Source: Thermoplasmata archaeon (GTDB taxonomy: Archaea; Thermoplasmatota; Thermoplasmata; Lutacidiplasmatales; UBA184). From it: DNA of 38,571 bases. The translations under genes were made by a program, and so were the position numbers. The DNA lies in the NCBI GenBank assembly GCA_021826685.1, contig JAKAYT010000010.1:1-38571 (forward strand), given 5' to 3'. Positions 1,442 to 32,526 of the stretch are shown piece by piece; positions within the stretch are counted from its first letter, which is position 1; each line of letters begins with the position of its first letter. The notes under the pieces are model-generated. The model searched no databases and was not told the origin of the DNA. It worked only from the letters and a program-made list of their open reading frames with translations.

Positions 1442-2731
1442 GTGGAGAAGGTCGACGTGGTCGTCGTCGGCGGTGGGCTCGCCGGCGCCTCGGCCGCCTA
1501 CGCCGCGGCGAAGTCCGGTGCGCAGGTCGTTCTTGCCGAGCGCGGCGCTCGGGCCGGCTCGAAGAGCGTTTCGGGGGGGCTATTGTATACGCACGCGCTC
1601 GCGAAGCTATTCCCGGGCTTCTGGGAGGAGCGACCCAGTCCCGTCGAGCGGGCGATCACCCGCAACGTGCTCACTTTCCTGACGCCGACCCAAGCGACCT
1701 CGGTCGATTTCTTCGATGGCGCCTTTGCACGACCTCCGTTCAACTCGTTCAGCGTCCTGAGAGCCACCTTTGACCCGTGGCTCGTGGCGCACGCCGAGCG
1801 GGCGGGGGCGACGGCGGTCTACGGGGCCCGGGTCGACGGACTCGTCCGGGAGGGGCACCGAGTCGTCGGGGTCCGGCTCGGCTCGGAGGAGCTGCGCGCG
1901 ACCGTGGTCGTCCTCGCGGAAGGGTTCAACTCGCTCGCGGCCCGCGACGCCGCACTCGAGCCGGACGTGTCGCCCGATACGGTGGGGATCGGCGTGAAGC
2001 AGGTCATCGGACTCCCGAGCGGCGAGATCGAGCGACGCTTCCAGCTGCGCGGAATCGAAGGTTTCCAGATGACCGCGACGGGCCTGCCTTCGGGAGTCGA
2101 AGGAGGCGGATTCCTCTACACTAATCGGGAGTCGCTCTCGATTGGCATGATCCTCAACCTGCGGTCGGCGGTCGACCACGGGGTTGCGATGTACGAGGTC
2201 CTGGAGGAGTTCAAGCAGCACCCCCTCCTTGCCCGATACCTCGAGGGAGGTACCCTGCTCGAGTACAGCGGCTGCATCGTGAACGAGGGGGGATTTGACG
2301 CCGTTCCGCCGCTTCTCGGCGACGGTTTCCTGCTCACGGGCTCGGCGGCCCAGATGTTCCTGAATGCGGGACTGACGTTGCGCGGCATGGACTTCGCAAT
2401 CGAGTCGGGCCGAATCGCGGGCGAAGTGGCGGGCTCCGCCGCCAAGGCGCAGGACGGATCAGCGTCATTCCTGCAGCGTTACCACACCGCTCTTCGGTCG
2501 TCGTTCGTTCTAAAGGACCTGAGACGGCATCGGGGCTACCCGAAACTCTTCGCGACCCCTCGACTCTACGGGATCTACCCCGAGATGATCGGGGCCCTGC
2601 TCCATCGCGCGTACTTCGTCGACGGGTCCGACCGGGAGCACCTGAGCGCCTCGCTGCGGTCCGTTCGGAACGGTCGCGTGTCCAACCTCACCCTCGCCCG
2701 GGACCTGTGGAAGGCCATGCGGACGTTGTAG
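1442..2731 (+). CDS. fixC: FixC-like electron-transfer flavoprotein:quinone oxidoreductase (FAD, geranylgeranyl-reductase superfamily)
   Basis: GTG start; VDVVVVGGGLAGASAAYAAAKSGAQVVLAERGARAGSKSVSGG (Rossmann FAD motif plus FixC-type GSKSVSGG); neighbours etfAB and fixX. Confidence 0.88.
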   Translation: MEKVDVVVVGGGLAGASAAYAAAKSGAQVVLAERGARAGSKSVSGGLLYTHALAKLFPGFWEERPSPVERAITRNVLTFLTPTQATSVDFFDGAFARPPFNSFSVLRATFDPWLVAHAERAGATAVYGARVDGLVREGHRVVGVRLGSEELRATVVVLAEGFNSLAARDAALEPDVSPDTVGIGVKQVIGLPSGEIERRFQLRGIEGFQMTATGLPSGVEGGGFLYTNRESLSIGMILNLRSAVDHGVAMYEVLEEFKQHPLLARYLEGGTLLEYSGCIVNEGGFDAVPPLLGDGFLLTGSAAQMFLNAGLTLRGMDFAIESGRIAGEVAGSAAKAQDGSASFLQRYHTALRSSFVLKDLRRHRGYPKLFATPRLYGIYPEMIGALLHRAYFVDGSDREHLSASLRSVRNGRVSNLTLARDLWKAMRTL

Positions 2732-2800
2732 GCAGGCCCATACCGGTGACCCGACAGCTCGCCGTGCTCTTCTCCTCGGAGAACGCGTCGGTTTCTCCTC

Positions 2801-3751
2801 TCAGCCGCCGAGCGCCTTGGTGAGAGCTGGGACCACCTGGTAAAGGTCGCCGGTCACCCGGTAATCCGCTTGGGCGAAGATGGGCGCGTTCGGATCCTTG
2901 TTGATTGCGACCACCACCCGAGAGGAACGCATACCGACGAGGTGCTGGACCGCACCCGAAACACCGATCGCAACATAGAGCTTCGGATGCACGCGGTGGC
3001 CGGTGAGGCCGATCCAGTGGTCGTCGGTCAGCCAGCCGGCTTCGGCGGCGAGCGGCCGGGTGCATCCGACCTCCGCCCGGAGCGCCTTGGCGAGGGCTTC
3101 GACGATCGAGAGGTCCTCCTTCTTCTGAAGGCCTCGCCCGATCGTGACGATCCGCTCGGCCTTCTCGATCTCCAGTTGGCCCCCTGCTTTCGGGCGACCC
3201 TCCATCCGATCCGTCAACGGGACCGTCGCCGGCATCGGATGCGAGGATCGTTCGGTCGAGGCCGAGGGAGCAGCCGGCGGAGCGGCTACCCCCGACATCA
3301 CGGCAACGATCGCCGGGCGACGGACGATGCGTTCGACGGCGACGGCGTTGCCGCTCAGCGCCTCCCGGTCGACCCGGATCCCATCGGCTTCAAGCCGGAG
3401 GCCCGTCACGCCGGTGGTCGCGGGAAGGTCGAGCGTTCCGGCCAGTCGTCCCGCGATCTCCCGACCGCGCTTGGTCGAGCCCATGAGGATGAGGGTCGGA
3501 GCGAGATCGGACACTAGGGCGCTCAACGCTTCGGCCACGACGTGCGGGTCGGAGCTCGCCGCACCCTCGAGCACGTGGATCCCATCGGCTCCCCCTGCCG
3601 CGAGCCGCTCGGTCACCTCCGACGGGCTCCCCGGCAGGACCACCGCAAGTACGCTCCCCGCTCCCTCGCCGACAATCGAGCGCGCGAGGTGCACGAGGGC
3701 GACGGCGAGATCGGGCTCTTCCGAGACGCACAGGACCCGCTCGCCGTTCAT
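2801..3751 (-). CDS. etfA: Electron transfer flavoprotein alpha subunit
   Basis: MNGERVLCVSEEPDLAVALVHLAR...; C-terminal FAD-domain motif GLTGHRVHPKLYVAIGVSGAVQHLVGMRSSRVVVAINKDPNAPIFAQADYRVTGDLYQVVPAL; 4-nt overlap with etfB. Confidence 0.95.
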   Translation of the reverse strand: MNGERVLCVSEEPDLAVALVHLARSIVGEGAGSVLAVVLPGSPSEVTERLAAGGADGIHVLEGAASSDPHVVAEALSALVSDLAPTLILMGSTKRGREIAGRLAGTLDLPATTGVTGLRLEADGIRVDREALSGNAVAVERIVRRPAIVAVMSGVAAPPAAPSASTERSSHPMPATVPLTDRMEGRPKAGGQLEIEKAERIVTIGRGLQKKEDLSIVEALAKALRAEVGCTRPLAAEAGWLTDDHWIGLTGHRVHPKLYVAIGVSGAVQHLVGMRSSRVVVAINKDPNAPIFAQADYRVTGDLYQVVPALTKALGG

Positions 3752-4539
3752 GGGAGCACCCCCTCTTCTTTCAGGGCGTCCCGCAAATGCGCCGCGAGCT
3801 CGTCCGGATTCGCCCCCGTAATCGCCTGCTGCTTTCGCGGGATCTCGGGAACGGCGACCCGCTCGATCACGACGACGGGCGCGAGACTGTCGGCCGGGAC
3901 GTCCAGGTCGGAAGGGCCGGTGACCCGTACTTCCTTCTTGGAGGCTTTCAGGTTCGCCATAAACGTCGGAAGCCGCGGCGTGTTGATCTCCTGCCCCACC
4001 GAGACAACGACGGGGTATCGAGCGTGCACGACCTCGACCTCTTTCTCCAGGTCCCTCTCGACCACGACCCCATCGGGGACGATCGTGAGGCGGCGCGCGT
4101 AGGCGATGTCGCCGCATTTCAGCTCGCCGGCAATGCGGGGACCCACGAGACCGGCGAAATGGTCCGTGCTGCCTTCCCCCAGTAGGAAGAGGTCGAACCC
4201 CCCAAGCTTCCGGGTCGCGGCCGCGAGGAGCCGGGCCACGGCGCGGGTGTCCCATTCCGCCCAGTGTTCGCCCGTGACCAGGATCGCCTCGTCCGCCCCG
4301 ATCGCTACTGCCTCCCGAAGCGCCTCGCGCGCCGCAGGACCGCCGACCGAAACCGCGGTCACGACGCCCCCGTGGTGCTCCCGGACCCTCACGGCTTCTT
4401 CGATGGCGTTCTTGTCGAAGTCGCTCGTTTTGCGTGGCGCCGAGTCGACACGGACAAGGCCGGTTGCCCGATCGGCGCGCGCGAGGCCGACGTCGATTCC
4501 ATGTTTCACCGCGACCCAAATCCTCAGTTTCTCTGCCAT
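3748..4539 (-). CDS. etfB: Electron transfer flavoprotein beta subunit
   Basis: MAEKLRIWVAVKHGIDVG...DKNAIEEAVRVREHHGGVVTAVSVGGPAAREALREAVAIGADEAILV; typical EtfB layout, adjacent to etfA. The annotated ORF extends upstream without support. Confidence 0.94.
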   Translation of the reverse strand: MAEKLRIWVAVKHGIDVGLARADRATGLVRVDSAPRKTSDFDKNAIEEAVRVREHHGGVVTAVSVGGPAAREALREAVAIGADEAILVTGEHWAEWDTRAVARLLAAATRKLGGFDLFLLGEGSTDHFAGLVGPRIAGELKCGDIAYARRLTIVPDGVVVERDLEKEVEVVHARYPVVVSVGQEINTPRLPTFMANLKASKKEVRVTGPSDLDVPADSLAPVVVIERVAVPEIPRKQQAITGANPDELAAHLRDALKEEGVLP

Positions 4540-4612
4540 GACCTCAACCTCCGGTTTCCTATCCCGAGAATTCTTTCCCTCGAACGGGCCGCTCGCTCGT
4601 GACCGGCACCGG

Positions 4613-5629
4613 TCAGGGGCCTCCTGCGACCGTCGGTGGCGAAGGGAGGACCACCGGCGACGGCGGGCCCATGGGCCCCTCGCCCGAGGGAAGAAGCGTG
4701 ATCGCCCTCGGCCGCCAAGTGGACCCATCCCAGGCCCGAAGCGTAATCTCGCGGGCGCTTTCGACCCGAGAGCGGTTCGGGACCTCCGCGAGCAGGATCC
4801 CTCCGTCTCCGAGCCGGTGGAACAGGTCGCTCGTATGAATGGTGAGGACCGATCCGTTCCAGAGGGCGCGGCCCGAGTGGATTGGCCCATGCCCCCGGAT
4901 GATCACCCGACACCCGATCGCGTCTAGGAACTCGTGGGCCTCGCGAGGTCCGTAGGCGAAGCCGATCGCGCGGTCCTCGTATCCGACGTCGGGATCGCTC
5001 CAAAGGAGGCCCTCGAGCAACGCTAGATCGGTCGCCTTCCACTGCGCGGGATCGTAGCGGTCGGGCGGGGGCAGACCCCCGTGGACAAGGAAGACGCCGT
5101 TCACCGTGCGGCCCGCCAGCGGAAGCCGTTCGAACAGATCCATGAACCGACCCCAGAGCCTCAGGGCCTCTTCCCGAGGGTAGATCCGTCGGAGCTCCCG
5201 CAACAGCGTCGGTCCCGGCACGGGCAACTGTCGGCTCGCTTCGTGGTTGCCGCGAAGGAGGATGACACGGTCGGGGTCGTACGCGGCCCACGCCAGCAAG
5301 TACGCCGCGTTCCACACCGAACCGCCCGGGAGCGCGGCCGGATCCGGCTCGGCGCGAGTCGCCCGATGGATGTAGTCGCCGAGTCCGACGAATCGCTGAG
5401 GAGGCGCGGCGCGTCGCGCGAACGCCATTGCCGCCGCGACCGACGGCCAGTCGCCGTGGCTGTCCCCGATGACCTGGAGCGGGACGTCGGAGGGGATTTC
5501 CGCGAGAGTCGGCCAGGGTCGTCGATCGAACGCTTCGGCAACCTCTTCGAGAAGGCCGCGGATCGACGAGGCCGGTGCGCCGATGAGCGCTTTCGGGTCG
5601 GACCGGACTTGGTCGGCCCATTCGCTCAT
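4613..5629 (-). CDS. PPP-family serine/threonine protein phosphatase-like metallophosphoesterase
   Basis: Motifs GDSHGDW, GLGDYIHR, LLRGNHE, HGGLPP and RGHGPI of the PPP phosphatase fold. Confidence 0.87.
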   Translation of the reverse strand: MSEWADQVRSDPKALIGAPASSIRGLLEEVAEAFDRRPWPTLAEIPSDVPLQVIGDSHGDWPSVAAAMAFARRAAPPQRFVGLGDYIHRATRAEPDPAALPGGSVWNAAYLLAWAAYDPDRVILLRGNHEASRQLPVPGPTLLRELRRIYPREEALRLWGRFMDLFERLPLAGRTVNGVFLVHGGLPPPDRYDPAQWKATDLALLEGLLWSDPDVGYEDRAIGFAYGPREAHEFLDAIGCRVIIRGHGPIHSGRALWNGSVLTIHTSDLFHRLGDGGILLAEVPNRSRVESAREITLRAWDGSTWRPRAITLLPSGEGPMGPPSPVVLPSPPTVAGGP

Positions 5630-5663
5630 CGGACCTTCGCGCGTGCCGCCCGAAGCTTGCGCC

Positions 5664-7502
5664 CTAAAAGAGCGGCTGGTAAGGCCGGGTGAAGAGGCGC
5701 CAGTTGCCCGTCGCCGGGTCGTAGACCGAGTTGACGAAACACTTCCAGCGCTCGTCGTCGACGTGCGGGAAGTCGGCGCGATAGTAGTAACCGGGCCAGC
5801 GGGTCTCCTCGCGGAACAGCGTATGTCGGAGCACGGCTTCGGCGGTCCAGACGCGGTGCTGGAGCTCCCAGGCTCGTTGCAACTGGTGGAGGTCTCGCGC
5901 GATCAGGTGCGGGAGGTCCTCCTTGAGGGCGGCGAGGTGATGGAGACCTCGCTCGAGGAGCGCCCGGTTGGTCGTGTAGTTCGCGCTGACCCCTCCTCCG
6001 TACTCGTCCATGATCTTCTCGAGCCGGTTCAGAGCATGGTCGGGCTGGAGGACCTGAGGGTTCACCGTGCCGGCCGTTACCACCGAACGTTGCGAGCCCA
6101 CCTCGAGCGGAGCGTAAACGGTCGTGCGAATCGACTGGACCTGAGCGTCCGTCACGGTCGGAAGGTCGGGATGATCCCGGACAAAGGCGACCGCGGCTTT
6201 GCCCGCGAGGCGGCCCTCGGAGTACGAGCCGCTCGAGAACTTATGCGCCGACCCTCCGATGGTGTCGCCGGCACCGAACAAACCCGCGATGGTCGTCATA
6301 CGATTGTAGCCCCACTGGTATTCCGACGGGGCGACGTCCCCCGGTCCGCTCGCCCACGCTCCCGCGCAGACCGCATGGGACCCCATCACGTACGGTTCGG
6401 ACAGGATGAGCTCGGAAGGTTCGTTCTTGGGTTCGATTCCCTGCGATGCCCATGTGACGGCCTGACCGATCGTCATGTTGAGGAAGTCCTCCCAGCCGAT
6501 GGCTTCCTTTTCGGGGGTGTTGAGAACGCGTTCGGTGTGGAGGAGGATCGGCCCGCGTCCCGCCAGAATCTCCTGGAGCATGAGGTGATTGCGCAGGCAG
6601 GTGGGCATGGGCTTCGCGTCGGCGTACGCCCCGACACGCTCCCTCAGCTCCGGGAGGCGAGAGGTCTCGTAGCTCTCCCCGGCAGAGTTGGAAGCGACCG
6701 CCTTCAAGAGTAGGAACCACGCGCCGACGGGGCCGTACCCGTCTTTGAACCGGGTCACGACCAGACGATTCTCCATCTGGGTCATCTCGGCGCCCATCTG
6801 GATCAGCAGTGCGTAGGCCGATCCGGTCGCCCAGGGGGGATACCACGTGCGCCCCGAGCCTTCGCCCGCCGAACGGGGTCGGTAGATATGCGAGGCTCCG
6901 GCGGCGCAGACAATCACGGCCTTGGCCCGAAACACGTAGAACGACCCGTCTCGAACGTTCACTCCGACCGCGCCGGCGACACGTTTCGGGTCGCTCGCGT
7001 CCGGTAGGAGGTGCGTTACCATGATCCGTTCGTACACCTCCGAGGCGGCCTTGCGGGTCGCCTCGGCGATGATCGGCTTGTAGGACTCGCCGTGGATCAT
7101 CACTTGCCAGCGACCCTCGCGGACGTAGCGGCCGGTCTGCGGGTCGGTAAAGATGGGCAGCCCCCACTCCTCGAACATGTGGACGGTCGAGTCGACGTGC
7201 CGGGCGATATCGTAGACCAAGTCTTCTCTCGAGAGGCCCATGAGGTCGTTGCGAACGTACCGCACGAAGTCCTCAGGCTGGTTCTCGTTCCAGCGCATTC
7301 CCATGTAGCAGTTGATCGCGCTCAGGCCCTGCGCCACCGCGCCGCTGCGCTCGATTGCCGCCTTCTCCGCGACGACGATTTTCAGATCGCGTCCCCAGTA
7401 GCGTGCCTCGAACGCAGCGCCGCAACCTGCGAAGCCGCCTCCGACGATCAGGATGTCGGAGTCGACCGTGTGGACCGGAACGGTGGTCGGACTTTCTCCC
7501 AT
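5664..7502 (-). CDS. aprA: Adenylylsulfate (APS) reductase alpha subunit
   Basis: DSDILIVGGGFAGCGAAFEARYWGRDLKIVVAEKAAIERSGAVAQGLSAINCYMG...; AprA signature N-terminus and length; directly downstream of aprB. Confidence 0.95.
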   Translation of the reverse strand: MGESPTTVPVHTVDSDILIVGGGFAGCGAAFEARYWGRDLKIVVAEKAAIERSGAVAQGLSAINCYMGMRWNENQPEDFVRYVRNDLMGLSREDLVYDIARHVDSTVHMFEEWGLPIFTDPQTGRYVREGRWQVMIHGESYKPIIAEATRKAASEVYERIMVTHLLPDASDPKRVAGAVGVNVRDGSFYVFRAKAVIVCAAGASHIYRPRSAGEGSGRTWYPPWATGSAYALLIQMGAEMTQMENRLVVTRFKDGYGPVGAWFLLLKAVASNSAGESYETSRLPELRERVGAYADAKPMPTCLRNHLMLQEILAGRGPILLHTERVLNTPEKEAIGWEDFLNMTIGQAVTWASQGIEPKNEPSELILSEPYVMGSHAVCAGAWASGPGDVAPSEYQWGYNRMTTIAGLFGAGDTIGGSAHKFSSGSYSEGRLAGKAAVAFVRDHPDLPTVTDAQVQSIRTTVYAPLEVGSQRSVVTAGTVNPQVLQPDHALNRLEKIMDEYGGGVSANYTTNRALLERGLHHLAALKEDLPHLIARDLHQLQRAWELQHRVWTAEAVLRHTLFREETRWPGYYYRADFPHVDDERWKCFVNSVYDPATGNWRLFTRPYQPLF

Positions 7503-7517
7503 TTTCCCTCCCGGTCG

Positions 7518-7964
7518 TCAGCCCCCAGCCGCCTTCTTGGGCAGGGTCGGAAGGGCTTCCACCGCCAGGTAGTCCGGTTCATACGCGAGCAGCTCGCTCG
7601 AGACCGTTTCCGCCGTGGGCTCGGGGGAATCCTGCGGAGCTCGGATCGAACCCCACGGGGTCGTTCGGATCGGGAACGTGAACTCCTTGACCTCCCCGCT
7701 GCGCATGCGGATCTTCCAGTCGATGCGATCGGTGGTTCGGGTCGGCATCACCAAGTGACCGAGCGGAGCGAAATCGGCGTACCCCCGGACCTCGATCGCG
7801 GCCTCGGGGCATGCCTTGACGCACGCGTAGCACTCCCAGCACATCGACGGCTCGATGTTGTACGCGCGACCCTGACCGGTATCGATGTGCATGATGTCGC
7901 TCGGGCAGATCTTCACGCACTCCATGCATCCTTTGCACTTGTCGGTCAGAACGTAGGTCGGCAT
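7518..7964 (-). CDS. aprB: Adenylylsulfate reductase beta subunit (two [4Fe-4S] ferredoxin)
   Basis: MPTYVLTDKCKGCMECVKICPSDIMHIDTGQGRAYNIEPSMCWECYACVKACPEAAIEVRGYADFAPLG; AprB signature. Start taken at the internal ATG 7964. Confidence 0.95.
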   Translation of the reverse strand: MPTYVLTDKCKGCMECVKICPSDIMHIDTGQGRAYNIEPSMCWECYACVKACPEAAIEVRGYADFAPLGHLVMPTRTTDRIDWKIRMRSGEVKEFTFPIRTTPWGSIRAPQDSPEPTAETVSSELLAYEPDYLAVEALPTLPKKAAGG

Positions 7965-8066
7965 CGAACTCCTTGTCGCGGGCGGAGCATCCGACGGCCT
8001 GCGGATGAACGGCCGAACGCCCGTGACATGCCTCGAACGGTAGGTGTGGCCTATGAAAACGCTTTC

Positions 8067-8082
8067 GACAATTGTCCAAATT
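8067..8082 (-). promoter_or_regulatory. Related motif (minus strand AATTTGGACAATTGTC) in the fixX-aprB intergenic region
   Basis: Shares TTGGACAA core with the two copies above; contains perfect palindrome GACAATTGTC; located in the 164-bp gap upstream of aprB. Confidence 0.35.
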
Positions 8083-8128
8083 AGGATCGCGGACGCCGCG
8101 TGCTCGATCGACGGGCTCGGCCCTTTGG

Positions 8129-8422
8129 TCACCCCAGTCGATATTGGACGCCCTTCCCACCGGCCGGGTACGCCCAGATGAGCGCGCGATTCCCCATCGA
8201 CTGGCAGGCCACGCGGCATGCCCCCGTCTCGATACAGCTCTCATAGCTGATCCTTAGCCGCTCGCTTTCCCAGTGGTAGACCTCGGCCGGGCAAACCTGG
8301 ATACAGGGCTTCTTCTCGCACGTCCGGCAGAGCGCGGGGTCCGAGAGGGTCAAGTGCGACGCCGAGTCGGTGTCGAACGCATCCGACCCGAGACGTTCGG
8401 CGGTGCTCGCTCGTCCGGCCAC
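8129..8422 (-). CDS. fixX: FixX-like ferredoxin partner of ETF:quinone oxidoreductase
   Basis: LCRTCEKKPCIQVCPAEVYHWESERLRISYESCIETGACRVACQSMGNRALIWAYPAGGKGVQYRLG; FixX-type cysteine pattern and YPxGGKGVxYRxG C-terminus. Confidence 0.92.
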   Translation of the reverse strand: MAGRASTAERLGSDAFDTDSASHLTLSDPALCRTCEKKPCIQVCPAEVYHWESERLRISYESCIETGACRVACQSMGNRALIWAYPAGGKGVQYRLG

Positions 8423-15108: not shown

Positions 15109-16142
15109 GCGGGCCGGTCCCGGACGGATCGTCGCCCTTCCGTCCCGAACTTCCCGTCTGGCGCAGGATCGACCTCGGTCGTTGCTCGCCGCTGAGAGCC
15201 CAGACGTTCGTCGAAAGCGTCGCTCAGTTCGTCGGGGCCGGCGAGGTGCCCAACACCCTGTTGTTCGCCCGGCCGGATTCCCCGTACGTCTCCTTGGGAT
15301 TCCATCAGTCCTTCGCCGAGGAGGTCGACCCGCAGTTCGTTGCCCGTCGCCGGATCCCGGTGATCCGACGGGTCGAGGGAGGGGGAACGACCTGGCTCGA
15401 CTCGGACCAGTGGTTCTACCAGCTCGTGTACCGCGACGAAGGGGCCGGAGGGCCCGGGGACCTCGCTCGCTTCTTGCGTCCCGTCGCCGAGGCGGCGAGG
15501 GGGCTAGGGCTGACTCTTACGGTGCGTCCACCGAGCGATCTGGTCGTAGGAGAGCGGAAGATTTCGGGCAACGCGGGCGGCGACTGGGACGGTGCCCACA
15601 TCCTCGTTGGAGGGATCCTGGGTCGGGCGGACCGGCAGAACATGGCGGACCTATTACGACTCCCGCATCCCGGAATCCGTCCGATCGTGCGTGCCGAACT
15701 CGCGCGATGGGTCACCTCCTGGGTCGACGAGACCGGACATCTCCCCGAATGGACGGCGTTCGCCGACGCGGTCACGACGGCGTTCGGCGCGGCGGGCCTC
15801 TTTGGCACGCGCTCCGCCGATCCGTCCGAGGCCGAGGAGGCGCACTTCCGCCGGGAAACGGTGGCCCGCCACCAAGCGACGACATGGCGCGAGCTCCCCC
15901 CACTACCGCGAACGGCGAGCTCCGTGGAGCGGCGACTGCGGGTGGCCGGCCCGCACGGGATCCTCGTTCTTGCAGGACCGGGGTCGGAGGAGCGCCGTAT
16001 CGCGATCGTGGACGGCGCCGTGGTACGCGCCGGTTACGCGCTCGGCCCGTCACTCGAAGCGGTCGCTCGGCCCCTTCCCCGGGAGTCTTCCGAGCTCGCG
16101 GAGCTGGCGACGGCCGTGCGCTCGATCACGGGGTTCGACTAG
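15105..16142 (+). CDS. Lipoate-protein ligase (LplA-like, sulfur-oxidation-linked)
   Basis: GTG start overlapping lbpA stop; RIPVIRRVEGGGTTWLDSDQWFYQLVYR...GERKISGNAGGDWDGAHILVGGIL; LplA motifs RR..GGG and RKISG with C-terminal accessory domain. Confidence 0.85.
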   Translation: MSGPVPDGSSPFRPELPVWRRIDLGRCSPLRAQTFVESVAQFVGAGEVPNTLLFARPDSPYVSLGFHQSFAEEVDPQFVARRRIPVIRRVEGGGTTWLDSDQWFYQLVYRDEGAGGPGDLARFLRPVAEAARGLGLTLTVRPPSDLVVGERKISGNAGGDWDGAHILVGGILGRADRQNMADLLRLPHPGIRPIVRAELARWVTSWVDETGHLPEWTAFADAVTTAFGAAGLFGTRSADPSEAEEAHFRRETVARHQATTWRELPPLPRTASSVERRLRVAGPHGILVLAGPGSEERRIAIVDGAVVRAGYALGPSLEAVARPLPRESSELAELATAVRSITGFD

Positions 16143-17262
16143 CGGTCGTAGGCGCGAGCTCTGCGGCGGCCAGGATCGAAGCTGCGAGGTCGGCGGCCGT
16201 CGCACCGACCAGCTCGACGCGGTTCTGGCTGAGCCAGCCCGCGACGGACTCCCGGAGCGAATGCTCATCGAGGATCTGGTCCGCGAGGCTTCGTTCGAGG
16301 TCCGCGAGCGGCGCGTCAAACGGCATCGTGAAGAAGTCGCCCGAGATCTCGACCTCCTTCACCCGGCCGCCGCCGTGCAAGAGCGTGATGCGAACAAGCT
16401 TTGCGGCCTTGCGATCGTACCGGGCGAGGAAGGTGTCGTGCGCGATCTTGAGTGCCCGTCCCTCGTACGGGGCGCCCGACAGGCCCGGGTGGGAGCGATC
16501 CTTCCGGTACGTCCAGTCGTCCCGGGTTCGTGAGATTTTGAGCTCGGCCAGGGACTCCGCCTCCTCCGCGGTCAGCGCGCCGGGTACCCACGAGACCCCC
16601 AGCGATCGCGCGAACTCCTCTCGCAGGGTTTGAGCGACGAACCCCCGCTCGGGAAGGCGACCGGTCTCGGCGCGGATCGATGTGAGCCACTGGGACATCC
16701 CGCTCGCGAGCTTCCCGCGGAATTTCTCGTCCGGGACCCGTAAGACCCGGCTCATCGCGGGGACGTCGAGGTCGAGCAAGAGGTCCCCCACCAGTATCCA
16801 CGACCCGTGCAGTTGCATGGCCCCGTTCGCGCTCAGCTTCCGGCCGCGGGAGGTGAGGTCGTTGATGCCGGCTCGCTCCGCGGCGACACCGAGCCTACGT
16901 AGCGCGGCCGCGACGGGCGCGAGGTGCCGCTCGTAGAAGGCGGCAACCCCCCCGTCGGTGCCCGGAGCGCCGGGCGGGAGCACGAGCATGTAGTCGAGCT
17001 CCCACGGGCCGTCGAGAATCGCCCCCCCGCCGACGGCCCGACGGACGACCGGGATCCCTTGGGCGCGGCAGTAGGCGAGGTCGAGCTCCCGCTCGGCCTC
17101 CTGATGGTAGCCGACGTTCGCGAACGGACGTTCCGGGTAGAGGACGAGAGCCGTCGGGGGCGAACGGCCGGCGGCAACGGGCCGAGCGAGGGCGACGAAC
17201 ACGTTGACCATCGTGGCGCCGTCGACCGCTCCGAGGTCGAGCCAGCGCCACGCCGCGCTCAC
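16126..17262 (-). CDS. Second lipoate-protein ligase with C-terminal accessory domain
   Basis: GIPVVRRAVGGGAILDGPWELDYMLVLPP...SRGRKLSANGAMQLHGSWILVGDLLLDLDVPAMSRVLRVPDEKFRGKLASGM...; C-terminal ...ISGDFFTMPFDAPLADLERSLADQ; LplA+LplB-like layout. Confidence 0.88.
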   Translation of the reverse strand: MSAAWRWLDLGAVDGATMVNVFVALARPVAAGRSPPTALVLYPERPFANVGYHQEAERELDLAYCRAQGIPVVRRAVGGGAILDGPWELDYMLVLPPGAPGTDGGVAAFYERHLAPVAAALRRLGVAAERAGINDLTSRGRKLSANGAMQLHGSWILVGDLLLDLDVPAMSRVLRVPDEKFRGKLASGMSQWLTSIRAETGRLPERGFVAQTLREEFARSLGVSWVPGALTAEEAESLAELKISRTRDDWTYRKDRSHPGLSGAPYEGRALKIAHDTFLARYDRKAAKLVRITLLHGGGRVKEVEISGDFFTMPFDAPLADLERSLADQILDEHSLRESVAGWLSQNRVELVGATAADLAASILAAAELAPTTASRTP

Positions 17263-17283
17263 CGTCCCCTCGGTTTCGAATCG

Positions 17284-17676
17284 CTAGAAGGAGATGACCG
17301 AGTCCGCGTCGAGCGCGAGGTCGGCGAGCGTCGCCGAACCGACGAGCTTGACGCCGTCAATGAGGTCGGTCGGCGGAATGTCGCAGAGGTCGCGGCAGCT
17401 CTCCGCGCACGCCAGGAACTTGACGCCGTTCTCGCGCGCCATGTCGATGAACATCTTCAGGTTTCCCCCCTTCTTGAGAGGGACGGATTCGGCCCCTCCC
17501 TTGCGAAGGAGCTCGGGCGCGTGCATCAAGAAGTACATCGTCGTGTCGATCTCCATGGCGGCCATGAGCGCCGCGGTGTAGAACGGGGCGTACGTCTTGT
17601 CGGGGTCCTCCGGCCCGGTCGTCATTATCATCAGAATCTTCTTCCCGGCGGGGTCCGCCGGCGTGCTCGCGCTCAT
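17284..17676 (-). CDS. DsrE-family protein
   Basis: KKILMIMTTGPEDPDKTYAPFYTAALMAAMEIDTTMYFLMHAPELLRKG...NGVKFLACAESCRDLCDIPPTDLIDGVKLVG; DsrE/F fold with CAESCRDLC. Confidence 0.85.
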   Translation of the reverse strand: MSASTPADPAGKKILMIMTTGPEDPDKTYAPFYTAALMAAMEIDTTMYFLMHAPELLRKGGAESVPLKKGGNLKMFIDMARENGVKFLACAESCRDLCDIPPTDLIDGVKLVGSATLADLALDADSVISF

Positions 17677-17698
17677 CGTTCGCTGCCTCCGAAACGCC

Positions 17699-18148
17699 TC
17701 AGGTTTGGCACCGCATACAACGGATGTTGTCCTTCTCCAGGATCTCTTTGAAACGCGCGAGCGCCGCTTCGCCCCGGAGCAGCGACCCAATTTCGCTCGG
17801 ATCGGACGCGGTCATCGCCACTATCCACCCTCGGCCGTAGGGGTCGGTATTGAGGAGCCCGGGGTCCTGCTCGACCTCCGCGTTCGCCGCGATCACGGTG
17901 CCCGTCACCGGTGCCATCACCGGGCCCGCCCACTTGCCGCTCTCGACCGTCGCGATCGGTTTCCCGCGTTCCCGCGGAGTGCCCGCCGCCTTAATCCGAA
18001 CGTGGAGGATTTTGCCCGCCCGGGTCTGCGCCGGATCGGTAAGGCCGACCCACAGGCGATCTCCCTCGACTTTGACCCAGGTCATCTGGGTACGCTCAAT
18101 GAAGTAGGCACGGTCGTCCGGGAATTCGCAGCCGTTCAGAATCGCCAT
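17699..18148 (-). CDS. lbpA: Lipoate-binding protein LbpA (GcvH-like) of the sHdr operon, with C-terminal CMRC tail
   Basis: MAILNGCEFPDDRAYFIERTQMTWVKVEGDRLWVGLTDPAQTRAGKI...IATVESGKWAGPVMAPVTGTVIAANAEVEQDPGLLNTDPYGRGWIV...NIRCMRCQT; ESGKW lipoylation site; directly downstream of shdrB2. Confidence 0.93.
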   Translation of the reverse strand: MAILNGCEFPDDRAYFIERTQMTWVKVEGDRLWVGLTDPAQTRAGKILHVRIKAAGTPRERGKPIATVESGKWAGPVMAPVTGTVIAANAEVEQDPGLLNTDPYGRGWIVAMTASDPSEIGSLLRGEAALARFKEILEKDNIRCMRCQT

Positions 18149-18158
18149 CGTTATCCTC

Positions 18159-19094
18159 CTAGGCAAAACCTCGCGAGCGCAAGAAGAGGTCGGGTCGCGA
18201 GAAATTGTCCCGGAGTCGAGCCTCGGCCACGCTAGCGCCGAACGCGAGGCTCATGAGCTGGGTGAAGTACACCACCGGACGCAGTACTTCCTCGCCGTAC
18301 GCGGCACGGATCCGATCCAGGTGGTTCTCGATGTTGATTTGGCCCAGCGGGCAGATGGTGGCGACCAGATCGGCACCCGCGCGACGAGCCTCGTTGAGGA
18401 TCGACGCGCTAAACGCGACCGCAACATCGAGGTCGCTCAGCGCGTGACCACCGCCACAGCAGATCGTCTTCGCCGAGAAGTCGGTGAGGACCTTCGCTCC
18501 GCACGCCTCGAGCAGTTCGTCCAGAAAATGCGGATGCTCCGGGTCATCGGCCCCCGGCGTTCTGCCGGCCCCGGTGTAACGCTTCGGCCGAGTGTAGAGA
18601 CAGCCGTAGTACGGAGCCACCGTGAGGCCGGTCAATGGTCGTCGCACGGCCGCCCGTACCCGTTCGGGCCCGGCCCGGGTGTGGATGAACTCGAGCACGT
18701 GTTGGACCGATGCTTCGCCGTCGTACGTTGGCGCTCCTCCTTCCTCCAGGGTCGCGTTGATGCGGCCGCGGGTCGCCGGCTCGCGGACCGCGTCGTTGGC
18801 CCGCGCGAGCGAATAGACGCAACCGTTGCAGGCCGCCACGACCTGGTGGCGCCCCATCGACCGGGCGAGCGCGAGGTTGCGGGCGGGGAGAGCGACCGAG
18901 ACGTCCTGGCTCAGGTTCTTGACCTCCGTCGCGCCGCAACAGTTGTAGTCAACGATCCGATCGAGCGAAAGGCCGAGTCGACGGAGCACCTGCTGGGCGG
19001 TGACCTCGTAGGCCTTCCCGAGCCCATCGAGCGAACAACCCGGATAGTACGCCGGAACGCTATCCGTCGGCCCGCGCGAGACGCCGGCGCTCAC
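18159..19094 (-). CDS. shdrB2: Heterodisulfide reductase-like subunit B2 (two CCG-type motifs)
   Basis: AYYPGCSLDGLGKAYEVTAQQVLRRLGLSLDRIVDYNCCGATEVKN...ACNGCVYSLARAN...GCLYTRPKRYTG...KTICCGGGHALSD; GTG start at 19094 overlapping shdrC2 stop. Confidence 0.93.
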   Translation of the reverse strand: MSAGVSRGPTDSVPAYYPGCSLDGLGKAYEVTAQQVLRRLGLSLDRIVDYNCCGATEVKNLSQDVSVALPARNLALARSMGRHQVVAACNGCVYSLARANDAVREPATRGRINATLEEGGAPTYDGEASVQHVLEFIHTRAGPERVRAAVRRPLTGLTVAPYYGCLYTRPKRYTGAGRTPGADDPEHPHFLDELLEACGAKVLTDFSAKTICCGGGHALSDLDVAVAFSASILNEARRAGADLVATICPLGQINIENHLDRIRAAYGEEVLRPVVYFTQLMSLAFGASVAEARLRDNFSRPDLFLRSRGFA

Positions 19095-19768
19095 GGGGAG
19101 TGCCCTCCCCTTCCTCCCGCAGCGCTCAGCGATGCGCGCCGGCGGCGTTCGTCCTCCTTCAGCTTCTCGCGCAGCACGTTCCCGAACTGTCGCCATCCGC
19201 GAGTCCGGTGGGCGAGAGGCCCGGTTCGGAGCCGGCCGCTCCGCAGCAGCTGGAAGCCCATCTTGAGCATCTCGCCCGCCGGCATCGTCCTCCCTTCCAA
19301 GCGTTCGTACGTCCGGAACAGGCTCGCTTCGTCGAGGACCCCCCGGCGAAGCAGGTTCTCCGTGTAGGCCCGGTCGAACCGGTCGGCCGGGCTCTCAGGG
19401 GCGCCGCCGGTGAATTCGAGATAGCTTCCGATCGTGTGGATGACCTCTTCGACTTTGACGCCCTTCGGACAGCGCTCGACGCACTTGTTGCACGAGACGC
19501 AGCGCCAGATCGTAGTAGCGTACTTCCGCAGTTCCTCCTCGTAACCGACCTGGGCGAGGTAGATGAAGTAACGCGGATTGAACTCGTTTAACCCATAATC
19601 GGTGTGAAGGCAACAGCCGGCCGTGCACGTCCCGCACTGCCAGCAGCGCGAGATCGTGTCGCCCTGAGGCTGGCTGCGGACCCAGTCGAGGATCCGCACG
19701 TCGAGGTCCGTCTGGACGCGCGAGCGCAGGAACGTGTTCCAGTCACCGGAGACGTCGATCCCCTCCAT
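19091..19768 (-). CDS. shdrC2: Heterodisulfide reductase-like subunit C2 (two [4Fe-4S])
   Basis: ISRCWQCGTCTAGCCLHTDYGLNEFNPRYFIYLAQVGYEEELRKYATTIWRCVSCNKCVERCPKGVKVEEVI. Start uncertain (ATG 19768, or a slightly upstream alternative start). Confidence 0.9.
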   Translation of the reverse strand: MEGIDVSGDWNTFLRSRVQTDLDVRILDWVRSQPQGDTISRCWQCGTCTAGCCLHTDYGLNEFNPRYFIYLAQVGYEEELRKYATTIWRCVSCNKCVERCPKGVKVEEVIHTIGSYLEFTGGAPESPADRFDRAYTENLLRRGVLDEASLFRTYERLEGRTMPAGEMLKMGFQLLRSGRLRTGPLAHRTRGWRQFGNVLREKLKEDERRRRASLSAAGGRGGHSP

Positions 19769-19808
19769 CTCGAGCCGGTCGGAGCGATCGACGGTGACGA
19801 GTGACTTC

Positions 19809-20546
19809 TCAACGATCGGCAAGGGTAGGGCGCCTCCGGACGCCGAGTAGCATCGTCGCGAGAGGGAACGGACCCGGAAGGAGACGCTCGATGCCGCCTC
19901 CCTGGAAACTTCGGTCGGTCGCCTCCCCCAGGCGGCCCGCGTAACTGAGGGCGAGGAGCACGTCGACCCCGGCGAACGTTTGCGAGGGGAAACCGAGCGC
20001 ACCGAGCTGGAGCCGAATCTCGCCGAGCCGTGCCTGGGTCGCCGCGTAGCTTTCGGGGTCGGACCCCCCGAACGCCGCGAGGATCCCGGTCCGCCGTGCC
20101 GGGTTCCATACCCAACGCGCGAGGAGAGCGATCCGGTCGGGGGCGGCGGCGTGGAGGAGCTCGCTCGCGAGGTCGATCCCCACGTCGGCCGGTGCGCCGT
20201 CGAACCTCCGGGCTACCGCCGGAAGGTCCGACGGGCCCAACCGACCCCCGTGCGCATCCCGCAGGATGGCGCGCACGGCCGCAGGGTCGGTCCGTGCGAC
20301 GAGGTCTGCGCGCCACGGGCGGGTCGAAACGACCCCGCCGAGAACCGACCGGAACGCCGCGGGGAATCGGTCCGCCGGGAGGCGTTCGAGCTCGCGCACG
20401 GCGGCTAGTTTCGCCTCGACCGATGCCTCGAGGCGGTTGACTTCGCCCACCCCGCACGGCAGCACGCGCTCCCGGAATTCTTGCGCGACGCGGCTAGGGT
20501 CCGCTCCGGTAGAGCGAATCGTCCGTGAGGTTTCAGTTGCGAGCAT
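19809..20546 (-). CDS. Conserved 'hyp' protein of the sHdr operon (sHdrH-like)
   Basis: About 245 aa, located between shdrA and shdrC2 exactly where the hyp gene sits in the canonical C1-B1-A-hyp-C2-B2 order; assignment mainly by synteny. Confidence 0.75.
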   Translation of the reverse strand: MLATETSRTIRSTGADPSRVAQEFRERVLPCGVGEVNRLEASVEAKLAAVRELERLPADRFPAAFRSVLGGVVSTRPWRADLVARTDPAAVRAILRDAHGGRLGPSDLPAVARRFDGAPADVGIDLASELLHAAAPDRIALLARWVWNPARRTGILAAFGGSDPESYAATQARLGEIRLQLGALGFPSQTFAGVDVLLALSYAGRLGEATDRSFQGGGIERLLPGPFPLATMLLGVRRRPTLADR

Positions 20547-21570
20547 ATTGGTATGCGCGGAGGGCCGCGCCCATCCCCTCGGTCACGGAGTCAGGGATCG
20601 CCTTCGGCCCGGTCGCCGCGCCCGCGAGGAACACGCCGGGCAGCCCGGAGTCGACGGGGTTCATGTCCGAGAGATTCGGGGTGAGGAACCCCTCGGGGCC
20701 GACGGGGACGCCGAAGAGGGCGGCCGCCTCTTGGGTCCCGGTGCCGGGCTCCATGCCGCTCGCGAGGACGATCATATCGAACGGAACCTCCGTCGGGCGG
20801 CGGAGGATCGTATCCTCTCCGGTCGCGAGCAGTTGGGAGCCTCCCTCGGCGATCGTCACCTGACCAATGCGTCCCCGGATGAACTTGACCCCGTACTCTT
20901 GCATCGACTTCCAGTAGAGGTCCTCCCACAGGCCGTAGGTCCGAATGTCCATGTAGTAGACGTATGCGTCGATCTCGGGATGCTTCTGCCGGATCTCGAC
21001 CGCCTGCTTGATGCTCACCGCGCATCCCATTCGGCAGCACCAAGGGTTCCCGACTTGGAGATCCCGGGACCCCACGCAAAGGATCCAGGCAATTCGTCGG
21101 GGCGGTTTACCGTCGGACGGACGGAGCACCCGGTCGTCATGGATCATCCCTTCGAGTTCCTTGAAGTCAAGAACGTCCGGGTAGCGGCCGTATCCGTACT
21201 CGAACTTGCGCCGAGAATCGAAATGGTCGAAGCCGGTCGCCAGGACCACGGCACTGACCTCCTGGGTCTCGAGCGCATCGCCGGTCTTCAGCGTGACGCG
21301 GAACCCTTTCGGAAGGCGCTCCGCTTTCGTAACGGTCGTCGATCGATGGAGCTCGACCCTCGGATTTCCCTCGACCTTGGCGATCAACGGCCCGAGAATC
21401 TCGTCCGACGGGCGCAGGTCCGGAGCCAGGAGCGAGTAGTGCCAGCGCTTCGGGTTGCCTCCGAGGTAGGCCTCCCGCTCGACCAAGATCGTCGGCGCAC
21501 CGAGCTCCGCGATCTCCGCCGCCGCGCTCAAGCCGGCCGGACCGGCTCCGAGCACGAGGATCGGATTCAC
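20533..21570 (-). CDS. shdrA: Heterodisulfide reductase-like subunit A (short sHdrA flavoprotein)
   Basis: VNPILVLGAGPAGLSAAAEIAELGAPTILVEREAYLGGNPKRWHYSLLAPDLRPSDEILGPLI...ILCVGSRDLQVGNPWCCRMGCAVSIKQAVEIRQKHPEIDAYVYYMDIRTYGLWEDLYWKSMQEYGVKFIRG; GTG start 21570. Confidence 0.94.
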   Translation of the reverse strand: MNPILVLGAGPAGLSAAAEIAELGAPTILVEREAYLGGNPKRWHYSLLAPDLRPSDEILGPLIAKVEGNPRVELHRSTTVTKAERLPKGFRVTLKTGDALETQEVSAVVLATGFDHFDSRRKFEYGYGRYPDVLDFKELEGMIHDDRVLRPSDGKPPRRIAWILCVGSRDLQVGNPWCCRMGCAVSIKQAVEIRQKHPEIDAYVYYMDIRTYGLWEDLYWKSMQEYGVKFIRGRIGQVTIAEGGSQLLATGEDTILRRPTEVPFDMIVLASGMEPGTGTQEAAALFGVPVGPEGFLTPNLSDMNPVDSGLPGVFLAGAATGPKAIPDSVTEGMGAALRAYQYARN

Positions 21571-22853
21571 CGAGAACGCCCCCCCGCGCCGGCGGGGGCA
21601 GCCGGAGCCTCGTCCGGAAGGACTTGGCCCTTGTTGATCGCGAAGTACGTCTCGATTTCCCCGTGGGCAGGGTGGAGCAGTTCGGGCGCCTGACCGTTCT
21701 TGAGCGCCTGAAGATACTCCCGGAACTCGGCCTTCGCCGCCTTCCAATCGATACCCATCTTCGTCATCAACGCCTCCGCCGAGGCCGCATGCCAGTGGAC
21801 CTGGGCGATCTTGTACGGATGCGCTCCCATCGCGAGTGCCGCGAACTGTACATCGGAGAGTACGGGGAGCATGTACGGGAGCCCGTGGGCCTTCCCGATC
21901 CATTGGCTCTTGTCGAGCGTGGTCACGCAACCCGTGTCGCTCGTGATGGCGACATCCGCGTGCGCCTCTTCGACCATCGGGCGGATCTTCCGTAGGTTCG
22001 CGAACGACCGGCTGAACTCGCGCTCGCTCAGGATGTGACGGAAACCAAACCCGCAGCAGTCGTACCACGTTGAGTAATCGGCGACCTTGGCCCCGAGCGC
22101 CATAAGTATCCCCGAGGGGACGGCCGGCCGCTGCCCGGCATAGATGGCCTCATCGTAGACGGCGTCCTCGGGCACCATCTTGTAGTAGTGGCAGGGTTCG
22201 TGCACGGTCGCGACGATTCCCTCGACCGTGTGCTTTTGGCGGGCCAAGATCTCGGGCGCCATGACGTGGACCCACTCGGAGTAGTGGACGATCTCTTCCG
22301 GCAGCACCAGCTCGCGGCCCATCTTCCCCAAGACGTCGCGGACCTTCGCGCGAACCGTCGCGTTCTCGACGAGGAGTTTGCGCATCTCCTTGTAGTCCCC
22401 GTAGCTGGTTCCGCAGTGGATGAGGGGAAAGTGACCCGTTTCGTAGGCGCGGTGGAAGTTTCGGGCGGCTACGGCGGCCAGAGCGACCGGGTTCGAAGTG
22501 GCCGTCCCGTGGTAATTCCATGCTGTACAGGAAGTCTGGTGCGGCTCGTTGAGGTACGTGCGGCCGGTCTCGTTCATCAGCCAAAGCAGAGAGGAGGGGT
22601 AGCCGGGGATGTTGCCGCACTGTCCGCATGACTTGTGATGCCAGAGTCGGTCGGTAGGGATCCGCTTTTTCCATCCGAAGAGTGTGGAAACCTCGACGGG
22701 CCGATTCTCCGGACGGATCCGATGGATGACGATCTCGCCGGCGGCCTCCAAGCGTTCCATCTCCTCGCGGACGTCGACCACCTTCTTCCCGGTGCCCTTC
22801 TGATGCTGGTTCCTCTCTTGGACGACCTTGCGGATTTCGTTTGCGCTCAACAT
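21567..22853 (-). CDS. shdrB1: Heterodisulfide reductase-like subunit B1
   Basis: LWHHKSCGQCGNIPGYPSSLLWLMNETGRTYLNEPHQTSCTAWNYHGTATSNPVALAAVAARNFHRAYE...VHEPCHYYKMVPEDAVYDE...YDCCGFGFRHIL; sHdrB1 signature. Confidence 0.94.
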   Translation of the reverse strand: MLSANEIRKVVQERNQHQKGTGKKVVDVREEMERLEAAGEIVIHRIRPENRPVEVSTLFGWKKRIPTDRLWHHKSCGQCGNIPGYPSSLLWLMNETGRTYLNEPHQTSCTAWNYHGTATSNPVALAAVAARNFHRAYETGHFPLIHCGTSYGDYKEMRKLLVENATVRAKVRDVLGKMGRELVLPEEIVHYSEWVHVMAPEILARQKHTVEGIVATVHEPCHYYKMVPEDAVYDEAIYAGQRPAVPSGILMALGAKVADYSTWYDCCGFGFRHILSEREFSRSFANLRKIRPMVEEAHADVAITSDTGCVTTLDKSQWIGKAHGLPYMLPVLSDVQFAALAMGAHPYKIAQVHWHAASAEALMTKMGIDWKAAKAEFREYLQALKNGQAPELLHPAHGEIETYFAINKGQVLPDEAPAAPAGAGGRSR

Positions 22854-22863
22854 GGACAGTCCC

Positions 22864-23700
22864 CTATCCCCGGAACGTGGCCACCGGGCCGCGCATACCT
22901 TCGAGCTCTGTCCGGAACCGTTCTCGGGCCTCTTCGAACTCCTCGCGTCGCTCCTCGATGATATCGATCAGCATTTCCGTAAGGTCGGGATCGAGGCCCC
23001 GAAGCATGTCGAGGACGCCGGTCTCCTCGTAGATTCGGAACAGCTCGAGGGATGTCTGTACCGAGACCTCCCATGACGATCGGGTCGTCTGCAGGACGTC
23101 CGAGGGGATCGCCCGGCGCATGATGTCGGCCCCGACGCCCCACGCCCGGTCGGAGCCCGTTGCGAACGGCCCCCAGTCCCGGAAGAAATCCGGCTGGATC
23201 ATATCGGACGAGACCTGCGTCCCGACCGTCATCAACAGCGTGAGCGATCGCCCAAAGGGCGCGAGGGTCTTGCGGGTCGAGGCAACCCCGTGGGAGACCG
23301 AGAGCTCGCGCATGACGCTGATGATCCCGGCGATGTCGTTGCCAAAGCGGCAGCGCATGTTGCAGGTGTAACACTGGCAGCATGCCCAGATCTTCTCCTG
23401 GAGGGCGTCCCAGAGGGTCGTCGCGTCGCCGGTCTCTGCGATCTGAAGCATCTCGCGAGGGGAGAAGTCGTAGAATCGGGCCGCCGGACATCCGGTCGTA
23501 CATTCCCCGCAGTTGAGGCAGCCAAGGACGAACTCGTGGTAGCGCGGATCGGCGTGAAACTCCCTGAAGATCGTCTCCGAGAGCGCGCGCTCCTCGGGTG
23601 AGGCACGACGGCGGCCGGTCAGCTCCATCGCGGGCGGCGCCGCCGACTCTTCCTCAGTGAGGGTGAGCGCACGTTGCGGAAGATGGGCGACGATGGTCAT
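22864..23700 (-). CDS. shdrC1: Heterodisulfide reductase-like subunit C1
   Basis: VLGCLNCGECTTGCPAARFYDFSPREMLQIAETGDATTLWDALQEKIWACCQCYTCNMRCRFGNDIAGIISVMRELS; first gene of the operon. Confidence 0.94.
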   Translation of the reverse strand: MTIVAHLPQRALTLTEEESAAPPAMELTGRRRASPEERALSETIFREFHADPRYHEFVLGCLNCGECTTGCPAARFYDFSPREMLQIAETGDATTLWDALQEKIWACCQCYTCNMRCRFGNDIAGIISVMRELSVSHGVASTRKTLAPFGRSLTLLMTVGTQVSSDMIQPDFFRDWGPFATGSDRAWGVGADIMRRAIPSDVLQTTRSSWEVSVQTSLELFRIYEETGVLDMLRGLDPDLTEMLIDIIEERREEFEEARERFRTELEGMRGPVATFRG

Positions 23701-24876: not shown

Positions 24877-26043
24877 TTATTCGGTGATGAGTACGTCGCC
24901 TCGAGCGAGGACTCGATAGACCTCCGGCCGCAGGAGTTCCTTGGGAAGCGCCTCGCCCTTCGCGATCGCCGTACGGATTCGGGTCTGGCTCGTGTCGAGG
25001 CGGGATGACACCGGGTGCGTGCACGTCCGGGCCGTCGCCATCCAACCGCAATCCTTGCAAAAGAACGTCTCTTCGTATCGTACCGGTACGACGTCGATCG
25101 GATACTCGTCGAAGATCCGCTGGCAGGCGAAAGGTTCGTAGTACTTTCCGATGCCGGCTTGGTCCCGTCCCACGATATAGTGGCTGCAGCCGAAGTTCTT
25201 ACGGATGATCGCGAGGAAGAGGGCTGCTTTGGGACCCCCATACCGCATCGTGATGCTCAAAGCGGCGAGCAGGACCCGATGGGCGGGATAGTAGTTCTGA
25301 ATGAGCGCCTGGTAGGCTTCGGCGATGACCGCCGGCCGGTAGTCGCCCTTCTTGAGACGCCCGAGGACCGGATGCACGAACAGCCCATCGATCTCTTCCC
25401 GCTCGAGCGTGCACCGCTGAAGGTACTCATGAGCGGTATGCGGCACGTTGCGGGTCTGGTAGGCCGCGACGTTGGACCAACCTCGTCGCGCGAACTCATC
25501 CCGGACCTCCGCGGGAGTCTTTTCCAGCGGGCCCGTGGGGAGCTCCAGCCGTCGCAGGAGTACCAAGGGACCCGCGAGGGCAACTTCACCCTGGGCCTGA
25601 AGGTCCGCGACATTCGGATGTTGCGGATCCGTCGTTCCGTACACCTGCTCGGCGACTCGGTGCCGGTCGTAGCGGAACTTCTCCTCGACTCGGACGATGG
25701 CGAACAGGCGCCCCGACGGGTCCGTGAGGCCCACTTCGTCCCCCGCCCGCACCGACTCCACGACGCGGAGGTTCTCCTTCCCCGTAGGTGCGAGCAGGAT
25801 TGGGATCGTCCACGGGAGACCGTCCGGTAGGCGACCCCGCTCCACCACCGCCTCGACGGCTTCCTTTCCCTGGAAACCGTCCAGCGGACTGTAGGCGCCG
25901 ATCCCGATCTTCTCCGCATCGTAGATCGCATCGATGAACGGGGAGAGCGTTAGGAGGTCGCGGGACTCCGACTCGCGTCGTTGTCGCTCGGACGGCGTGC
26001 TCTCACGGTTGATGAGCCGCCCGCCGTGAGGTAGAGGAATCAC
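24877..26043 (-). CDS. sat: Sulfate adenylyltransferase (ATP sulfurylase)
   Basis: [15 protein letters not shown]...GAYSPLDGF...[20 protein letters not shown]...[16 protein letters not shown]...[35 protein letters not shown]...[21 protein letters not shown]-type and GRD motifs. Start GTG 26043. Confidence 0.95.
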
Positions 26044-26224
26044 GGCCCGTGGGAGCCAAGTCGGCGACTTAATCCTTCGCCCGTTCCGTGCACGGGCACT
26101 CCGTCGAAGACCGGTGCAGACCCGGGTGGCCCCGCCGAGGATGGCGCGAAGAACAACGGTCGCAGGGGCTACGTCGGTCGGATCCGAACCCGCCACCCTT
26201 TTCCCCGGTCGGTGCTACAGCACG

Positions 26225-31605: not shown

Positions 31606-31616
31606 GGAGGAAAACG

Positions 31617-32525: not shown

Positions 32526-32526
32526 G

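Follow-up and report, generated by a model that had tools for sequence, protein, structure and literature searches.

How electrons pass between dissimilatory adenosine 5'-phosphosulfate (APS) reductase, AprBA, and the membrane is settled only for systems with Qmo, while the role of AprM has only been postulated (PMC3779200, PMC2211403). Two loops of AprB have been related to these partners (PMC2211403): to Qmo, a charged one near Cys-B13, and to AprM, one that is acidic and lies between strands 8 and 9. Here we describe an aprBA locus of an uncultured Thermoplasmata archaeon that is surrounded by genes for an electron transfer flavoprotein (ETF; etfBA) and for FixC and FixX. A first-pass annotation had proposed that ETF and FixCX might form a route from APS reductase to quinone that is independent of AprM and Qmo. 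Comparative genomics supports this proposal, and we consider it probable that the locus encodes a module for sulfite oxidation, with a dedicated ETF chain, probably a non-bifurcating one, having replaced AprM between APS reductase and the quinone pool.

The locus shares features with several described systems. Like aprMBA of sulfur-oxidizing bacteria (Apr lineage I), it has an AprBA of the same clade, with a partner gene immediately upstream of aprB and sat in the region, but fixX and etfBA/fixC stand in place of aprM, and AprB is without the acidic loop presumed to dock AprM. As with QmoABC-linked AprBA, a separate redox module would join AprBA to the quinone pool; here, however, there is no QmoC, AprB is without the Qmo loop, and ETF/FixCX is found instead of the HdrA-like Qmo. 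FixABCX/EtfABCX of A. vinelandii and T. maritima (structure 7koe) has four homologous subunits, including a FixC with the quinone domain of ETF-quinone oxidoreductase (ETF-QO), whereas here EtfB is without the NAD and b-FAD (bifurcating FAD) motifs, FixX is one Cys short, the genes surround aprBA and the presumed donor is AprBA rather than NADH. In type II clusters of the sulfur-oxidizing heterodisulfide reductase-like (sHdr) system, ETF has also been recruited into prokaryotic sulfur oxidation, but the sHdr genes here follow the type I order, and the ETF goes with aprBA even where sHdr is missing. Finally, the ETF:ubiquinone oxidoreductase chain of beta-oxidation likewise leads from a dehydrogenase through ETF and an Fe-S flavoprotein to quinone; the dehydrogenase here would be APS reductase. 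We found no description of ETF or FixCX as a partner of AprBA in the open-access literature (most subscription journals lay outside the search).

The window, the whole stretch of DNA analysed, is the entire 38.6-kb contig C43 of a metagenome-assembled genome (MAG; 1.39 Mb, 60 contigs, 90% complete). Its genes were named by profile searches and by searches against solved structures:

8129-8422, minus strand: fixX, FixX/EtfX-type ferredoxin of 97 aa (Fer4_ETF_QO; 7koe_D, E = 5.3e-18)
7518-7964, minus strand: aprB, APS reductase beta subunit (TIGR02060, 177 bits, cut-off 136; PF12139)
5664-7502, minus strand: aprA, APS reductase alpha subunit (TIGR02061, 929 bits, cut-off 642)
4613-5629, minus strand: PPP-type calcineurin-like metallophosphatase (PF00149, E = 4.5e-19; translation contains GDSHGD, GNHE and HGG)
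3748-4539, minus strand: etfB (PF01012; signature EGSTDHFxGxVGP, without the NAD motif)
2801-3751, minus strand: etfA (PF00766/PF01012; 7koe_B, E = 1.1e-37)
1442-2731, plus strand: fixC, ETF-quinone oxidoreductase flavoprotein (best models PRK10015 and FixC; 7koe_C, E = 1.6e-62; ETF-QO structure 2gmh, 5.8e-22)

Linkage of fixX, etfBA and fixC to aprBA

The order read in the first-pass annotation, fixX-aprB-aprA-phosphatase-etfB-etfA on the minus strand with a convergent fixC on the plus strand, was correct in both order and strands, and QmoABC and AprM are indeed missing from the window. AprA and AprB both score above their curated cut-offs, which identifies a dissimilatory APS reductase. The stop codon of etfB overlaps the start codon of etfA, on which fixC converges. 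FixC contains the ubiquinone-binding domain (ETFQO_UQ-bd, PF21162; 31.5 bits, cut-off 27.7) in addition to an FAD domain. The solved structures nearest to EtfA, FixC and FixX are all those of T. maritima EtfABCX (7koe), whose chains C and D match FixC and FixX. Among named sequences, AprA is closest to those of uncultured "Thermoplasmata archaeon" MAGs (identity up to 93%); many members of this group come from samples of acid mines and soil. The Lutacidiplasmatales were considered from the literature as the identity of the archaeon but not adopted; the paper on that group names a sulfite oxidase and not Apr.

The best 80 AprA relatives from GTDB representatives were scanned with the window proteins over up to 10 kb on each side. 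In 18 of the 22 loci in the clade of the window's AprA, the gene immediately upstream of aprB is fixX; in one it is about 8 kb away on the etfBA side, and three loci from soil MAGs have no fixX. The genes etfBA and/or fixC are present in 14 of the 22; for some of the others, a short contig explains their absence. The module stands either downstream (fixX-aprBA-phosphatase-etfBA, with fixC convergent on etfBA) or upstream (etfBA with convergent fixC, then fixX-aprBA). The gap between fixX and aprB is only about 10-20 bases in three loci of one lineage (g7; L019-L021), which suggests that the two genes are co-transcribed there. The phosphatase gene stays beside aprA in most clade loci; we propose no role for it.

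We also surveyed 103 genomes of the family of the source genome (labelled f1). Whole-genome scans agreed with the locus scans: about 20 f1 genomes repeat the gene set at aprBA in differing arrangements, and the adjacency of ETF/FixCX and aprBA thus exceeds chance. The concern that it might be confined to a single genome can be set aside, as it recurs across genera of the family in the two main arrangements.

AprM, Qmo and the partner loops of AprB

According to an AprM profile built from the collected aprBA loci, aprM is the gene immediately upstream of aprB in 54 of 57 named loci of the outgroup (Proteobacteria, Nitrososphaeria, Marsarchaeota and others); of the remaining three, one is at a contig edge and two, from Thermoproteota, have aprB inverted. 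Thermoplasmata of the Sysuiplasma type also carry aprM in this position. The same profile matched none of the 22 loci of the window's clade, and genome-wide searches found AprM in no aprA-positive genome among the 103. Weak matches in two aprA-negative genomes (G021, 46 bits; G380, 35 bits) were not counted. QmoC exceeded its cut-off in 2 of 49 genomes searched, both outside f1, and in none of the f1 genomes searched, all of them aprA-positive (QmoA and QmoB were not searched separately). The raw f1 matches to QmoC were rejected as Qmo, being below the cut-off and mostly short, with many of them matching sHdr at its HdrC-type ferredoxin domains. An AprM or Qmo elsewhere in the genome would have weakened the first-pass proposal; neither AprM nor QmoC above cut-off was found in the source genome or in the other aprA-positive f1 genomes searched.

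In an AprA tree (quick method, LG+G4, SH-aLRT support), the window's clade (SH-aLRT 99) is nested inside an aprM-linked clade (SH-aLRT 99), which places it in lineage I. Given this nesting and the absence of AprM, it is most parsimonious to suppose that the fixX/ETF module took over the place of a lost aprM. One genome, G161, has a second, divergent aprBA copy (L132:17208-19450; AprA 65%) that groups with AprA of the type found in another Thermoplasmata family (f19).

Alignment of the clade AprB sequences shows changes at both partner loops. The Qmo loop near Cys-B13 is missing from all of them (CKGCM-----ECV), and the presumed AprM loop, whose identity was read from the alignment, is two residues shorter (for example, TDR--IDW versus EEKGMISW). 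In addition, CDGCG at the first cluster-binding cysteines has become CKGCM or CQGCM. Elsewhere in the Thermoplasmata (f19 and f31; L107-L111 and L113), aprBA occurs mostly with sat and without a nearby aprM or QmoC, and the AprM-type loop insertion is retained. A soil subclade (L022, L024, L026, L089-L092 and L096) has, upstream of most of its aprBA genes, conserved genes for two proteins, one NAD-binding and NmrA-like, the other small and DUF1059-like (families assigned by eye).

Proposed electron path and alternative partners

The Apr-linked EtfB proteins form a separate clade (SH-aLRT 99). In the family survey they occur in 21 of the 33 aprA genomes versus 1 of the 70 others. All 21 are among the 25 aprA genomes that have fixX, and none of the 8 that do not have it carries this EtfB; the Fisher p values for these co-occurrences (~1e-12) ignore shared ancestry and are descriptive only. 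The one aprA-negative carrier (G260) was set aside as an exception, its contig stopping directly after etfB. ETF/FixCX and AprBA are associated by gene content, by conserved linkage, by the absence of AprM and QmoC, by the loss of AprB loops, by co-occurrence with aprA and by persistence without sHdr.

The remainder of the sulfur genes in the window, to which the proposed path connects, are as follows:

16126-23700, minus strand: sHdr cluster in type I order (hdrC1-B1-A-hyp-C2-B2), with LbpA-like GcvH, DsrE and lipoate ligase
24877-26196, minus strand: sat, ATP sulfurylase, which can work from APS towards sulfate and ATP or in the opposite direction (PF01747, 2e-77; PUA_2)

As sHdr, LbpA-like proteins, lipoate ligase, DsrE/TusA proteins and sat share one contig, this contig is a sulfur-oxidation island. 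We infer the electron path, with its order, direction and protein contacts, as follows. AprBA would convert sulfite and AMP to APS, and the two electrons would pass from the surface cluster of AprB to EtfAB and then through FixX and FixC to membrane quinone. Sat would convert APS to sulfate and ATP, and the sHdr cluster is a candidate source of the sulfite. The presence of sHdr and sat nearby points to sulfite oxidation as the direction; sulfate reduction would require the chain to run in reverse. For the middle of the path there is a precedent in T. maritima EtfABCX, in which electrons pass from the shuttle domain of EtfAB by way of FixX to FixC (work of Feng et al. reported in PMC9232219).

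Several observations weigh against this path or against an exclusive tie to AprBA. In two genomes (G080 and G165), the etfBA-fixC genes adjoin sHdr, about 18 kb from aprBA. The co-occurrence counts are uncorrected for phylogeny, and four genomes with aprA and fixX (G057, G101, G239 and G290) have no detected Apr-type EtfB, for which short contigs may be responsible. In five aprA-negative genomes there is a FixX from the subfamily of the Apr-linked one, accompanied by FixC in all but one; FixCX is thus less strictly tied to Apr than the ETF, which looks Apr-dedicated. The aprBA of the soil subclade is without AprM, FixX and Apr-type ETF, and the soil loci without fixX have the same AprB loop losses, so that loop loss goes with the loss of AprM and not with the gain of FixX.

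FixC was not used as a sign of Apr dedication because its tree mixes Apr-linked and unlinked copies. In aprA-negative G177, a sat match in two pieces lies near orphan fixX and fixC genes (L155:3262-4423), and these fragments suggest pathway loss in that genome.

An alternative to the path through EtfAB is that AprB passes electrons directly to FixX and FixC (Fe-S to Fe-S), with FixC reducing quinone and EtfAB feeding FixCX from another donor, off the sulfite path. The position of fixX in the exact aprM slot, at its closest in the g7 loci, would fit such contact, as would G057 and G101, which keep fixX-aprB but have no detected Apr-type EtfB. We nevertheless regard it as unlikely for three reasons. 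First, the Apr-linked EtfB co-occurs almost only with fixX-aprBA. Second, no acyl-CoA dehydrogenase gene lies beside the Apr-linked etfB in the window. Third, fixX of G161 stays with etfBA, away from aprB (L012, L115).

The first-pass annotation had named either AprBA or sHdr/LbpA as the electron donor. Were EtfAB-FixCX to serve sHdr-LbpA, as is assumed for the etfAB of type II sHdr, aprBA would be a mere neighbour in the island. Type II clusters contain a fused shdrB3 and etfAB in one syntenic cluster, while type I clusters are without etfAB (PMC11582611). In the window, hdrC2 and hdrB2 are separate open reading frames (ORFs), as in type I. An sHdrB1 (at least 80% identity) was found in 21 of the 103 f1 genomes. 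Four genomes (G205, G209, G275 and G287) keep the etfBA-fixC-fixX-aprBA cluster without sHdr, and two (G332 and G263) have sHdr without Apr-type ETF. Because of the four sHdr-less genomes and the type I order, Apr is the better-supported partner of ETF-FixCX, and the AprBA half of the earlier suggestion is the one we retain. That sHdr is the true client is improbable, even with sHdr in the same window, the adjoining genes in G080 and G165, the occurrence of EtfB with sHdr in 17 of 22 cases and the type II precedent; Apr and sHdr may share the role of ETF-FixCX.

The presence of all four subunits, three of them closest to T. maritima EtfABCX among solved structures, would also fit a FixABCX that bifurcates or confurcates electrons between NADH, ferredoxin and quinone, with Apr as an extra donor or acceptor. 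Bifurcating EtfB proteins carry the motifs DGDTAQVGP and RxFxG (PMC9232219), and the FixX of bifurcating FixABCX has two [4Fe-4S] motifs (PMC6085437). The Apr-linked EtfB is without the RxFxG NAD motif and without SPT, and DHFxGxVGP replaces DGDTAQVGP; NADH bifurcation by this ETF is therefore unlikely, and a simple electron shuttle is the better guess for EtfAB. In FixX, the cluster motif reads CIETGAC, with Thr66 at the position of one second-cluster Cys. Relatives have Leu or Val at position 66, and the Cys is lost in every member of the subfamily, including those of aprA-negative genomes; a [3Fe-4S] cluster in FixX is a speculative possibility. With these motifs altered, we give a bifurcating complex very little credence. 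At about -60 mV, the APS/sulfite couple suits flavin and quinone as acceptors, and there would be no need for bifurcation. Part of the family has ORFs of about 600 aa or more (L149, L152, L153 and L162) in which EtfB and EtfA seem to be joined in a single frame; their NAD and SPT bifurcation motifs are near-canonical.

The source genome has another EtfBA and FixC on contig C22 (32-37% identical to the Apr-linked set), and a separate FixX with canonical cysteines on C35. Although acyl-CoA and similar dehydrogenases are the usual clients of ETF/FixCX and related FixCX occur in aprA-negative genomes, a general ETF for fatty or amino acid oxidation that lies beside aprBA by chance is scarcely credible, as the C22 set sits between two of the six acyl-CoA dehydrogenase genes of the genome and the aprBA linkage outlasts rearrangement in several genera.

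Flanking genes and significance

Elsewhere in the window are an IS605-type OrfB/TnpB transposase gene at the contig edge (2-1159) and a run of pentose phosphate genes (26114-33987) that includes a fused transaldolase-phosphoglucose isomerase ORF. A search of the source genome for FlpD (PF02662) found nothing.

We see an even chance that the locus represents a third class of APS reductase partner, in which AprBA would be the primary dehydrogenase of ETF-FixCX, with a remodelled (possibly [3Fe-4S]) cluster in FixX and AprM replaced in one archaeal family. As the ETF/FixCX chain that would stand in for AprM is well understood, the question of where AprBA electrons go becomes testable with purified proteins. 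If the proposed path is correct, ETF would be extended to a dehydrogenase of inorganic sulfur, and the electrons of sulfite would reach the respiratory chain along a route of the kind used by those of fatty acid oxidation. This would be a previously unrecognised way from sulfite to the respiratory chain, and would provide a sulfite-oxidation route in the Thermoplasmata of acidic sites.

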